Assembly: GCA_016916535.1 (NCBI GenBank)
Contig: CP070276.1
Location: 310,001-374,000, forward strand
Direction: 5' to 3'
From: Dysgonomonadaceae bacterium zrk40
GTDB lineage: Bacteria; Bacteroidota; Bacteroidia; Bacteroidales; Dysgonomonadaceae
DNA length: 64,000 nt
Shown here: positions 5,041 to 64,000 of the stretch, piece by piece
How the letters are laid out: each line of letters opens with the position of its first letter
Position numbering within the stretch: position 1 is the stretch's first letter
Translations under genes and position numbers: made by a program
The notes under the pieces: model-generated
Seen by the model: only the letters and a program-made list of their open reading frames with translations
Databases searched by the model: none
Told to the model about the DNA's origin: nothing

Positions 5041-5114
5041 CTCTTCAGGTTGGACTTGAACCAACGACCCTCTGATTAACAGTCAGATGCTCTAACCGAC
5101 TGAGCTACTGAAGA
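5041..5114 (-). tRNA. tRNA-Asn (GTT), copy distal to promoter
   Basis: This is a 74-nt cloverleaf read on the minus strand. The 7-bp acceptor stem is TCTTCAG/CTGAAGA, the discriminator is G, the anticodon is GTT within CTGTTAATC, and a TTCAAGT T-loop is present. The 3' CCA is not encoded. It is identical to the copy at 5148-5221. Confidence 0.97.
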
Positions 5115-5147: not shown

Positions 5148-5221
5148 CTCTTCAGGTTGGACTTGAACCAACGACCCTCTGATTAACAGTCAGATGCTCT
5201 AACCGACTGAGCTACTGAAGA
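5148..5221 (-). tRNA. tRNA-Asn (GTT), promoter-proximal copy
   Basis: The cloverleaf is identical to the other tRNA-Asn (anticodon GTT, acceptor TCTTCAG/CTGAAGA, G discriminator, no encoded CCA). The spacer between the mature tRNAs is 33 nt (5115-5147). The identity extends beyond the mature tRNA: 5040-5122 and 5147-5229 are the same, which points to tandem duplication with flank. Confidence 0.97.
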
Positions 5222-39484: not shown

Positions 39485-39556
39485 GTGTTTTTCATGGTAT
39501 TAGATTTAAGGTTAACAATGAAGATTGGTTGTCGTGAGACAACCATTTCTTTTTTA
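39485..39556 (+). ncRNA. Candidate small RNA between the GNAT gene and plsC
   Basis: A consensus promoter at 39450-39480 would start transcription near 39485. The transcript ends at a strong terminator: stem TGGTTGTC/GACAACCA (39526-39533 with 39538-39545), GTGA tetraloop, then TTTCTTTTTT. The RNA would be about 70 nt. A 24-codon frame from ATG 39494 runs through the hairpin and is unlikely to be coding. The hairpin points away from plsC, whose opposite strand has no T-run after it. The 100 bp before the promoter hold nothing else. Confidence 0.5.
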
Positions 39557-60849: not shown

Positions 60850-62646
60850 CTATTCAGTGATTCCCATTTTTCTCATCAAAAAACTGGCATTCATGTTTCG
60901 CGCTAACCCCTCCTGCAGCTGATAGCTAAACGTCAGGTTATCTTCCTGTATGAGGGCATCAAAGTGCCAGTTCTTTATCACCTGTGGATATTGTGTCTCC
61001 AGGTTACCCAGCGCCAGATCGTGTGTGGCAATGATACCACATCCACCGAGACCCACCAACCGCTTTATCAATGCCTGTGAACCCCGTTGTTTATCCTCGG
61101 AATTGGTTCCTTTCAATATCTCATCCAAAATGATCAAGATACCCTCTTCCCCTGAAACCAATCGGTCGATAATCATCTTCAATCGCTTTAGTTCCGCAAA
61201 GAAATAGGACTCACTGTTTACCAGTGAGTCGGAGGTACGCAGGTTGGTCAGCAACCGCCCCGGATAAAACGACAGTCTCTCCGCATAAACGGGCAAACCG
61301 ACTGATGCCAGCAGATGATTGATCCCGATTGTTCTCAGATAGGTACTCTTGCCCGCCATATTGGCTCCCGTAACGATCATGAAACTTGGTTTATGAGAAA
61401 GATCGATGTCGTTCTTTACGCATTTCTCGCGCGGGATGAGTGGGTGACCCAGTCCTTCACCACGAAAGCAGTGGCTGTCGGAAATCCCGGGGTAGCAGTA
61501 ATCGGGATGGTTGACTGCAAAAGTACCCAGTGATATCAATGCATCCATTTCGGCCAACAATGCAAACCAGGTATCTACATCACCTCCGTGATGTTTCATC
61601 CATCGCTCAATTTTCAAAGCATAGAGCGTTGTCCATAGAAACAGAGGATTCAGCAGCAGCATGGCGAGTGTAAAACCCACGTCGAGGTTGCGGCTCATTT
61701 TCGACAATTCCCTGATCGCATCAGAAGCTTTTTCGGGAAGGATAAGTTGCTTTTGCAGCGACTTCAGCAGTTGTGATTCGCATTTCTCCTGTTCTGAAAT
61801 CTTAAACAGGGAAGCATATGCATCCAATCGTTTGGATCGTTTATCAAACAATACCCATATAGCCTTCACCCTTTTCATGGGAATCAGTGATAATGCGAAT
61901 GTAAAAAGATAAAGATAGAGAAAGAGGCCGCCGGGCACAATTCCTGTAAGCCATAAAAAGATAAAAACAAGATAGAGGAAGGGGGTGATCCAAACGGCAG
62001 CTTTCCAAATCTTATTCTGAGACAACCCATTATCGGGACCCGAAGCAGTAAAATGCAACTCTTTCACAGAAGAAGAAGATATTTTCATCCCCGCCGTTCG
62101 AAAATGCAAACAGAACTCCTCCTTGCCCGCCAACTCCATGATGGTTTGTTGTCTGCCAAGAATCGCATCTTTATCGGTCAACGGATATTGTATCATCTCG
62201 GCCAGTTTTTGTTTCCCAATGGGCAACACCGTCCTGTTAATCTGCTGAAAAAATGAGTTCTCTCCAAAGATATCAAGATCATAACTGAACGGATGAGTAG
62301 GATCTGTCATCTCCCCGGCACCATTAAAAACCGAAAAATCATGACGAAATGCTTTTAGTTCATTTTCAGCCAACAGAATCAGAGACTCGGCAGACTCTTT
62401 CCGGTCCGATAACCTGTCATGCTTCTTGAATAAAAAAGCAAAAGAAAGAGCCATGACAATGAGAAGTGGAATAAGCAGTTGGTAATCACCCACAAGCATA
62501 TAGATCGCTATCAGGGTTCCGATAAACAGGATTAACCGAAAAGTGCCCAAAAGATGCATTTGTTTTCCTAGTCGATCGCTCTTTTTCCTGTTCTCCGACA
62601 CCAATGTCTCGTACGTATGTATCCTCTCTTCAATCATCCTGTTCAC
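60850..62646 (-). CDS. Membrane-anchored MutS-like ATPase
   Basis: The product is 598 residues. The C-terminal half is a MutS ATPase: Walker A TGANMAGKST at about residues 426-435, Walker B ILIILDEILKGTNSEDK and ATHDLALG. The N-terminal half has a pair of membrane helices (about 34-53 and 57-74), a second hydrophobic pair (about 205-250) and no MutS mismatch-recognition domain (no FxE motif). It is therefore not a repair protein of the usual kind. TAGATTTG on the minus strand (62673-62666) may be the -7 box. Confidence 0.85.
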   Translation of the reverse strand: MNRMIEERIHTYETLVSENRKKSDRLGKQMHLLGTFRLILFIGTLIAIYMLVGDYQLLIPLLIVMALSFAFLFKKHDRLSDRKESAESLILLAENELKAFRHDFSVFNGAGEMTDPTHPFSYDLDIFGENSFFQQINRTVLPIGKQKLAEMIQYPLTDKDAILGRQQTIMELAGKEEFCLHFRTAGMKISSSSVKELHFTASGPDNGLSQNKIWKAAVWITPFLYLVFIFLWLTGIVPGGLFLYLYLFTFALSLIPMKRVKAIWVLFDKRSKRLDAYASLFKISEQEKCESQLLKSLQKQLILPEKASDAIRELSKMSRNLDVGFTLAMLLLNPLFLWTTLYALKIERWMKHHGGDVDTWFALLAEMDALISLGTFAVNHPDYCYPGISDSHCFRGEGLGHPLIPREKCVKNDIDLSHKPSFMIVTGANMAGKSTYLRTIGINHLLASVGLPVYAERLSFYPGRLLTNLRTSDSLVNSESYFFAELKRLKMIIDRLVSGEEGILIILDEILKGTNSEDKQRGSQALIKRLVGLGGCGIIATHDLALGNLETQYPQVIKNWHFDALIQEDNLTFSYQLQEGLARNMNASFLMRKMGITE

Positions 62647-62753
62647 GATTATTGTTCTTCGGATACAAATCTATATAAAAACCCCCATGGAACCATACGA
62701 ATGCAATATTTATAAAAAAATGCAGTTTTCGCTTTCGTTTAAAATAATTCTTA

Positions 62754-62761
62754 TATCTTTG
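62754..62761 (+). promoter_or_regulatory. -7 box of the his operon
   Basis: TATCTTTG fits the consensus. Transcription would begin near 62766, 14 nt before the leader peptide start. Confidence 0.65.
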
Positions 62762-62779
62762 CATCATCAAAACAATAAT

Positions 62780-62836
62780 ATGAAAGCAAATTGGTTCCAT
62801 CATCATCATTTTCATACTTGCAGTCAGGCGAGCTGA
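62780..62836 (+). CDS. his operon leader peptide
   Basis: This is an 18-residue peptide, MKANWFHHHHFHTCSQAS, with five His codons at 62798-62815 (four in a row, one Phe, then another His). It is too short for routine gene calling. Its end overlaps the TCAGGCG segment (62824-62830) that can pair either with 62876-62882 or be masked by a ribosome at the stop codon (62834). This is the classic attenuation arrangement. Confidence 0.9.
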   Translation: MKANWFHHHHFHTCSQAS

Positions 62837-62903
62837 AATAGATATGTGCGAACACCAACGAGATATTTATTGACCCGTCTGAAGAGCATCAGGCGGGTTT
62901 TTT
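62824..62903 (+). promoter_or_regulatory. his attenuator: alternative antiterminator and terminator
   Basis: Terminator: ACCCGTCTGA (62873-62882) pairs with TCAGGCGGGT (62889-62898), one G-T wobble, followed by a T-run. Antiterminator: TCAGGCG (62824-62830) pairs with CGTCTGA (62876-62882), and AATAGATAT (62837-62845) with ATATTTATT (62863-62871). The two are mutually exclusive because they share 62876-62882. Confidence 0.85.
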
Positions 62904-62946
62904 ATTAGTAGACCACTGTTGCTTTCCGGCACATAACAAACCAACA

Positions 62947-63804
62947 ATGGAAAAAATCAAGATTGCAATCCAAAAAAGCGGACGGTTGAGCGAGAAATCA
63001 CTTGAGTTGCTCACCGAGTGCGGAATCAATGTCTCCAATGGAGATCGTAAGCTCAAAACCACAGCCCGCAATTTCCCCATGGAGATCCTCTTCCTTAGGG
63101 ACGATGACATCCCACAATATGTGGAGCAGGGTGTTGCCGATATTGGTATCCTGGGTGAAAATGAGGTGTGGGAGAAGGAGAAAGATGTGACGGTTGTAGA
63201 GAAACTGGGCTTCAGCAATTGCCGTCTCTCTCTTGCCATACCCAGGGAAGAGGTATATACCGGCCTCGATTATTTCAGGGGCAAGCGAATTGCTACCAGT
63301 TATCCGAAAATCCTCGGCAACTATTTCCGGGAAAAAGAGATTGAGGTAAAGATTGAAGAGCTGGGCGGCAGCGTTGAGATCGCTACCGGCATCGGTCTTG
63401 CCGATGGCATCTTCGACATCGTAAGCACCGGCAGCACCTTGATCATGAACGGTCTGAAAGAGGCGGAGACCATTCTTCGCAGTGAAGCGGTGCTCATCAG
63501 CAACAAAAAACTCACACCCGCAGTCTCCTCTCTGCTGGATCAGTTGCTCTTTCGTATCAAGTCGTACAAGGAGGGACAAGGTAAGAAGTATGTCTTGCTG
63601 AATGCCCCCAACGAGGTACTGCCCGATATTGTGCGGTTGCTGCCCGGCATGCGCTCCCCCAGTATCCTGCCCCTGGCCGATGAGGGTTGGAGCAGCGTTC
63701 ACTCGGTGATACGCGACGATGACTTCTGGGAAGTAATTGATGAGCTGAAGCGTCACGGTGCCGAAGGGATCCTGGTAATCCCTATCGAGAAAATGATCCT
63801 GTAG
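62947..63804 (+). CDS. hisG: ATP phosphoribosyltransferase HisG (long form)
   Basis: The product is 285 residues, the long form with a C-terminal regulatory domain. The N-terminal IAIQKSGRLSEKSLELL and the PRPP-binding TGIGLADGIFDIVSTGSTL are intact. It performs the first step of histidine synthesis and is usually feedback-inhibited by histidine through its C-terminal domain. It is the first structural gene of the operon, controlled by the attenuator, and is followed 44 nt later by hisD. Confidence 0.97.
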   Translation: MEKIKIAIQKSGRLSEKSLELLTECGINVSNGDRKLKTTARNFPMEILFLRDDDIPQYVEQGVADIGILGENEVWEKEKDVTVVEKLGFSNCRLSLAIPREEVYTGLDYFRGKRIATSYPKILGNYFREKEIEVKIEELGGSVEIATGIGLADGIFDIVSTGSTLIMNGLKEAETILRSEAVLISNKKLTPAVSSLLDQLLFRIKSYKEGQGKKYVLLNAPNEVLPDIVRLLPGMRSPSILPLADEGWSSVHSVIRDDDFWEVIDELKRHGAEGILVIPIEKMIL

Positions 63805-63848: not shown

Positions 63849-64000
63849 ATGAAAACAATCAACAACCCTTCTGAAAGCAAATGGAAAAAGCTGACCGAAC
63901 GTCCGCTCATCAAACAGCGCAAGCTGATGGATACCGTGGAAAAGATGTTCTACGACATCCACCGCAAGGGAGACAAAGCAGTGCTGGCCTACAGCCGCAA
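63849..64000 (+). CDS. hisD: Histidinol dehydrogenase HisD, N-terminal fragment
   Basis: About 50 codons are present before the window ends (MKTINNPSESKWKKLTERP, then DTVEKMFYDIHRKGDKAVLAY). The pattern of a short N-terminal arm followed by a GDKAV helix fits HisD, which performs the last two oxidations of histidine synthesis. The call leans on operon order after hisG. Confidence 0.8.
   Translation, partial: MKTINNPSESKWKKLTERPLIKQRKLMDTVEKMFYDIHRKGDKAVLAYSR

Follow-up and report, generated by a model that had tools for sequence, protein, structure and literature searches.

In the well-studied enteric case, the his attenuator of E. coli comprises a leader peptide with seven His in a row, a pause hairpin, an antiterminator and a terminator ahead of hisG. 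In 2010, Naville and Gautheret described leader-peptide systems as known only in Proteobacteria and Actinobacteria, and added Firmicutes (PMC2965389). Attenuator motifs were thought in 2013 to be gamma-proteobacterial with few transfers, according to the relevant part of PMC3766115, and the corresponding section of a 2016 paper treats leader genes of Bacteroidetes only for their distance to the next gene (PMC4833913). In 2022, his leaders were added in Firmicutes (passages on his leaders in PMC9413887). Within Bacteroidota, a map of B. thetaiotaomicron mentions short ORFs in 5' UTRs that are reminiscent of leader peptides (PMC7366714). For Flavobacterium psychrophilum, the section on 5' regions of a 2021 paper gives strong indications that leader-peptide attenuators precede amino-acid operons, and reports an unassigned 5' element before hisG that is present in other Flavobacteriaceae (PMC9723704).

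Here, we describe the leader of the his operon in a 64,000-nucleotide stretch of the genome of Dysgonomonadaceae bacterium zrk40 (the window), which we regard with high confidence as a classical ribosome-mediated transcription attenuator. With the his attenuator of E. coli and Salmonella (hisL, Rfam RF00514) it shares a His-rich leader before hisG, a pause hairpin over the His codons, mutually exclusive antiterminator and terminator, and hisG as first gene (the E. coli anatomy is in part given in the background of PMC9413887). It differs from it by four His in a row plus one, by other pairing sequences and by a Bacteroidota-type promoter motif. The Firmicutes his leaders (Bacillus cereus group, some Eubacteriales, Erysipelotrichales) similarly present an ORF with 3-5 consecutive His, an antiterminator and a terminator, and RF00514 is likewise not found there, but they belong to another phylum and to 17 genomes (PMC9413887, same passages). 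The F. psychrophilum 5' regions come from the same phylum and include an element before hisG, whereas the section that describes them is without a His peptide, a pairing scheme or a spread outside the family (PMC9723704).

No amino-acid leader family of Rfam matched the window at the gathering threshold. In a 261-base search of 62700-62960, RF00514 (His_leader) was the best match, with 27.9 bits for a gathering threshold of 49 (E = 0.0079). With such a score the locus falls outside that family as Rfam defines it, though it would work in the same way, and we set the match aside as a sub-threshold look-alike; leader genes are thereby added that, in this window, escape the Rfam His_leader model. 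A T-box riboswitch was also rejected, with no match in the window at the gathering threshold nor in 62700-62960 up to E = 10. The first-pass annotation had held that a version of this attenuator in Bacteroidota deserved documentation. Its phylum-wide spread was indeed not met in the open-access literature searched, but attenuation had already been proposed for F. psychrophilum in 2021 (PMC9723704, same section). Among the titles and abstracts retrieved from that literature, none describes a phylum-wide His leader, a swap of pairing blocks or tandem copies. An article by Lopatovskaya et al. from 2010, on attenuation in bacteria, may already list Bacteroidota. We document a Bacteroidota his attenuator and claim no priority for it.

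The histidine operon and its leader peptide

The closest named relatives of the host in a genome scan are Proteiniphilum genomes, with a HisG identity of up to 95%. Judged by these nearest named relatives, the host genome is itself a Proteiniphilum (Bacteroidota, Bacteroidales). The first gene of the operon, hisG (62947-63804, + strand), encodes an ATP phosphoribosyltransferase and matches NCBIfam TIGR00070 with 191.8 bits (cut-off 75.75). It is followed on the same strand by hisD (63849-64000), which continues past the window end, then, beyond the window and 3' of hisD, by hisC, a bifunctional hisB, hisH, hisA, hisF and hisIE, all of them ORFs named by NCBIfam. The upstream neighbour (60850-62646) is a divergent MutS-like gene.

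Ahead of hisG, the ORF MKANWFHHHHFHTCSQAS (62780-62836, + strand) encodes a peptide of 18 aa and ends with a TGA stop codon at 62834-62836; His-rich ORFs stand at the equivalent place in relatives. Its five His codons start at 62798, 62801, 62804, 62807 and 62813, and thus occupy 62798-62809 and 62813-62815. These 5 His among 18 codons are the cognate codons expected of a leader-peptide attenuator, and the operon product matches the leader, the genes behind the His-rich peptide being histidine genes. Direct reading of the sequence gave the 18-residue peptide with five His codons exactly as the first-pass annotation had described it, and all the coordinates of that annotation are correct to the base.

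There is a candidate for the promoter that it had listed before hisG. The motif TATCTTTG (TAnnTTTG), which we take to be a Bacteroidota-type -7 promoter motif, lies at 62754-62761 (+ strand), just upstream of the interval initially annotated (62780-62903), but the sigma-70 promoter scan of 62400-63200 found no promoter. Moreover, no clear -33 TTG element accompanies TATCTTTG. Among the 205 loci in which a leader was detected (see below), 165 have TAnnTTTG in the 60 nt that precede the ATG of the leader, compared with 14 of 205 shuffled stretches.

Three alternative hairpins upstream of hisG

The minimum free energy fold of 62780-62905 (-35.4 kcal/mol, z = -3.60) consists of two hairpins, hereafter 1:2 and 3:4. 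In the 1:2 pause or protector hairpin (62791-62858, + strand), the segment 62791-62821, which holds the His codons and the peptide end, pairs with 62828-62858, and the inner stem associates CTTGC (62817-62821) with GCGAG (62828-62832). The 3:4 hairpin, found by both fold and terminator scan, is an intrinsic terminator (62872-62903, + strand) in which 62872-62882 pairs with 62889-62899 and a T-run extends to 62903. With 11 pairs, a 6-base loop, -18.0 kcal/mol and a z of -5.95, it is the sole site in the scan of 62400-63200.

A third pairing, 2:3, forms the antiterminator. Its 5' arm is region 2, TCAGGCG (62824-62830, + strand), which shares bases with the 3' arm of the inner stem of 1:2. Region 3, CGTCTGA (62876-62882, + strand), identified from the sequence and the alignment, is common to antiterminator and terminator, being complementary both to region 2 and to region 4, a second occurrence of TCAGGCG at 62889-62895. 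Between 62824-62830 and 62876-62882 there are 7 complementary bases including one G-U, and the duplex of region 2 with the terminator arm reaches -10.1 kcal/mol. The segment 62816-62888 was folded alone, which mimics a stalled ribosome hiding region 1 while region 4 is not yet transcribed; the 2:3 antiterminator is present in this fold (-18.0 kcal/mol, z = -2.44). For the leader without its terminator (62765-62868), the overall fold is no better than chance (z = -1.03). The three pairings are mutually exclusive because 62828-62830 take part in both 1:2 and 2:3, and 62876-62882 in both 2:3 and 3:4.

The terminator therefore lies between the leader ORF and hisG. The antiterminator that excludes it begins where a terminating ribosome would cover it, as region 2 sits at the stop codon (in the loci compared, its median start is 11 bases before the ORF end). 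The 1:2 hairpin in turn excludes the antiterminator, and its inner part is kept, its outer part weakly so. The antiterminator of two paired blocks and the terminator sharing one arm with it had both been rightly recognised in the first-pass annotation, which called the attenuator complete but overlooked the 1:2 hairpin. As this hairpin is also present, the layout is a classical three-hairpin one, and the description of a compact version has to be abandoned.

By analogy with the enteric case, from which we infer ribosome stalling, ribosome-polymerase coupling and the response to histidine, the translation of the His-rich peptide very probably decides whether the his genes are read. RNA polymerase would start about 10-20 bases before the leader ATG, a position deduced from the promoter motif, and a ribosome would follow it closely, translating the leader of 18 residues. 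The sensor would be the translation of its His codons, the position of the ribosome would select 2:3 or 3:4, and the terminator would gate the operon. When charged His-tRNA is plentiful, the ribosome would reach the stop codon (62834-62836) and cover region 2 (62824-62830); region 3 would then pair with region 4, and transcription would stop before hisG. When it is scarce, a ribosome stalled on the His codons (62798-62815) would break 1:2 and free region 2. The 2:3 antiterminator (62824-62830 with 62876-62882) would then form first, no terminator would appear, and hisGDCBHAF(IE) would be read. On a leader without ribosome, 1:2 would form and the terminator would win.

The hairpins could alternatively govern the access of ribosomes to hisG and not its transcription. 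Attenuators that hide a ribosome-binding site instead of forming a terminator do exist elsewhere (PMC9413887, background part). The last hairpin is here a terminator with a T-run, though, and 47 bases separate the end of its stem from the ATG of hisG (median of 43 bases to the HisG match in the 205 loci), so that the hisG start is not covered. Such translational control is accordingly most improbable, and we retain transcription attenuation.

Distribution of the leader in Bacteroidota

We searched for this leader upstream of hisG. Of 101 genomes of the family, 85 have a hisG match, and the figures are 123 of 247 for the order sample and 252 of 296 for the phylum sample. Upstream regions were taken for 86 of the 87 family matches (L001-L086; the match in G086, a 3' piece, was left out), 80 of the 123 matching genomes of the order, 40 of the 252 for class and phylum, and 46 named loci from the genome scan (L201-L246). 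Another 34 scan loci (L167-L200) repeat family loci, with the same last 150 upstream bases in 34 of 34 cases, and were not counted. Two further repeats, L204 (a repeat of L088) and one family locus that repeats another, were also left uncounted, leaving 250 distinct regions. In the 400 bases upstream of hisG, a script searched for an ORF of 8-32 codons starting with ATG, with at least 3 His in 8 residues, and after it, within 110 bases, a hairpin with a T-run.

Of the 250 distinct regions, two of which were too short for this test, 205 gave a His-rich ORF followed by a terminator. As controls, 500 dinucleotide shuffles of these regions gave 1 positive, and 508 other 400-base windows, taken on both strands from 76 of the loci, gave 2. 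The leader was found in 75 of 85 regions from the family, 61 of 80 from the order, 43 of 45 from the named scan loci, 17 of 20 from the class and 9 of 20 from the phylum. The anatomy of the 205 loci is uniform, with medians of 17 codons for the ORF, 34 bases between its stop codon and the terminator stem, and 43 bases between that stem and the HisG match. The proposed comparison with relatives thus bore out the conservation of the His codons. The parts in place at the locus, together with this recurrence of leader and terminator, support the initial interpretation as an attenuator. The mechanism is a textbook one; its presence, in some version, in most of the Bacteroidota relatives that we examined comes as a surprise, and 205 of 250 sampled regions in another phylum change the picture of where attenuators occur.

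The remaining 45 regions, including the 2 that were too short, were not detected by the script. Among them, the peptide and the pairing are visible by eye in L007, L033 and L035, and L058 has its leader 434 bases upstream, outside the 400 bases searched. There is no leader in the stretches inspected for L024, L063, L074, L081 and L083.

With the initial Met left out of the count, 28.8% of the residues in the 205 leaders are His, with 3-7 His in each (at least 3 being a condition of the script). These values bear on the possibility that ribosomes do stall in the leader but that the switch is not specific to His, read-through being governed by a general slow-down of translation or by lost coupling. 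By eye, no Shine-Dalgarno-like stretch was seen before the leader ATG, and the inferred 5' end is short, which puts the promptness of leader translation in question. Nevertheless, the His codons are the common feature of leaders that have otherwise diverged, and these His-rich leaders stand before the histidine operon. A switch blind to histidine thus appears very unlikely, although it is the least improbable of the alternatives considered here. This leader is a ready reporter for whether coupling of transcription and translation in Bacteroidota is tight enough for a classical attenuator to work on leaders that have no evident Shine-Dalgarno stretch.

Some individual loci deserve mention. L024 comes from a relative in the same genus, with a HisG identity of 82%; neither a His leader nor a terminator is seen in the 420 bases (1080-1500) that precede its hisG, and regulation seems to have been lost or replaced there. 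Genome G021, a member of the family (listed contamination 3%), has three HisG matches on separate contigs, of which L073 has a His leader, while none was found in the fetched stretches of L074 and L083. Tandem double attenuators, i.e. two His-rich ORFs each with its own terminator before hisG, were observed in L094, L104, L106, L120 and L121, all from other families of the order. The script listed 7 tandem cases in 248 regions; these 5 look real, and L051 and L265 look like chance or double counting.

Differences in the pairing blocks between lineages

The blocks that form the hairpins differ between lineages. In the genus and its near kin (type A), regions 2, 3 and 4 are TCAGGCG, CGTCTGA and TCAGGCG; in another branch of the same family (type B), they are GGTAAG, CTTACC and GGTAAG or similar. 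Blocks 2 and 3 therefore vary jointly, TCAGGCG/CGTCTGA versus GGTAAG/CTTACC, with few independent switches. Other types are found elsewhere, C with a GGTTTGCAG arm and D with a CCCCGGC arm. Regular expressions assigned 54 loci to type A, 91 to B, 26 to C, 7 to D and 27 to others, many of the latter being plainly A-like.

The blocks also shape the peptide. The C-terminal TCxQAS/R is well conserved among type A relatives, and its near-constant TC and QA(S/R) are explained by their codons being the RNA pairing blocks CTTGC and TCAGGCGAG. This conservation might also suggest a His-rich metal-binding or otherwise functional micropeptide, the hairpin being an ordinary terminator. However, the residues conserved are those encoded by the pairing blocks, and type B relatives from the same family have other peptide ends (e.g. 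ILLPxGK) where they have the other pairing block. In addition, there is no close upstream gene on the same strand to terminate, the neighbour at 60850-62646 being divergent. We set a micropeptide function aside, as the conserved residues track the RNA blocks and the end is replaced in type B, and we give it almost no credence compared with a leader peptide whose translation controls the operon.

We then compared the pairing energies across the 205 loci. The leader zone binds its own terminator arm with a mean of -10.0 kcal/mol, compared with -8.2 kcal/mol for permuted arms; the lowest mean of 10,000 arm permutations was -8.7 kcal/mol. Against shuffled leader zones, z was below -2 in 105 of 205 loci and below -3 in 42. 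Zones of type A give -10.1 kcal/mol with other A arms and -7.7 with B arms, those of type B -10.6 with other B arms and -7.2 with A arms, and those of type D -9.0 with D arms. In the same test, zones of type C (26 of 205 loci) show no preference for arms of their own type (-6.7); by eye, TGCAGA/TTTGCA is a candidate 2:3 pairing for this type. Among the A and B loci with a full HisG, 94 of 104 have a leader zone that favours, of the two consensus arms, the one corresponding to their own terminator. The best-fitting consensus arm is that of the locus's own type for 39 of 47 A, 46 of 57 B, 7 of 18 C and 3 of 5 D loci.

Finer tests were less discriminating. When leader zones were ranked for each terminator arm, the arm's own zone paired best in 2 of 205 loci, and was among the top five in 15 and in the top tenth in 42 of 205, a control that is blunted because many loci share one block. 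Types A and B could not be told apart by counting their motif words, since GGCGAG, a word from region 2 of type A, was listed for B as well. A HisG tree of 135 rows has 6 type changes among the four types, 3 of them between A and B; an independent-pairs test on this tree had 2-3 pairs and no power (median p = 1).

The first-pass annotation had also recommended looking for covariation in both hairpins. For this purpose we used an alignment (A1) of 30 sequences of our own choosing, drawn from the family and from named relatives and belonging to a single block type (A). The 2:3 pairing is present in 97.6% of cells, against 24-43% when one side is slid, and 3:4 in 95.2%. The 1:2 hairpin is paired in 79.6% of cells, with 92.3% for its inner 16-pair helix and 23-64% for its outer helices. 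One 2:3 pair changes from G-C to A-U in 3 of the 30 sequences. No shuffle out of 500 reaches the proportion of paired cells of 2:3, and none its covariation score. Pairing is thus well kept in the 2:3 and 3:4 helices, but the number of 2:3 pairs changed on both sides (1, for 0.3 in shuffles) is reached by 153 of 500 shuffles, and most measures in A1 are close to shuffled values.

We consider it likely that leader-peptide attenuation of histidine synthesis is an old, phylum-wide trait of Bacteroidota, as opposed to one that Proteobacteria invented and seldom passed on. Lineages would have kept the His leader and the logic of three hairpins while replacing all the blocks together (A, CGYYTGA, and B, CTTRCC, at the least, and perhaps C and D), some of them would have two attenuators in series, and ribosome-RNA polymerase coupling would be implied in Bacteroidota leaders. 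One logic with exchanged pairing blocks throughout a phylum, and with tandem copies in some lineages, is worth following.

Other elements in the window and the genome

In the 1.5 kb upstream of ilvD and of a homoserine dehydrogenase domain, the sequence of the host genome lies inside other genes or the same gene. A putative Trp leader is present in the same genome (G000:C1, about 1500126-1500261; L287, reverse complement, 49-184). Its ORF, MTNLLMNGYWWRCLQLTRS, has two Trp codons (WW); after it come a hairpin, a strong terminator (fold z = -5.29) and then a gene that by eye resembles trpB. It has the same short ORF, hairpin and terminator as the His leader, but by its codons would sense tryptophan, which suggests that leader-peptide attenuation serves tryptophan too in the host genome. 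In the window, BTncRNA_FopS, a family of paralogous small RNAs of Bacteroidetes, matches 39485-39556 (+ strand) with 80.1 bits for an Rfam gathering threshold of 56. Finally, two tRNA genes with equal Rfam scores lie about 100 bases apart on the - strand, at 5041-5114 and 5148-5221.
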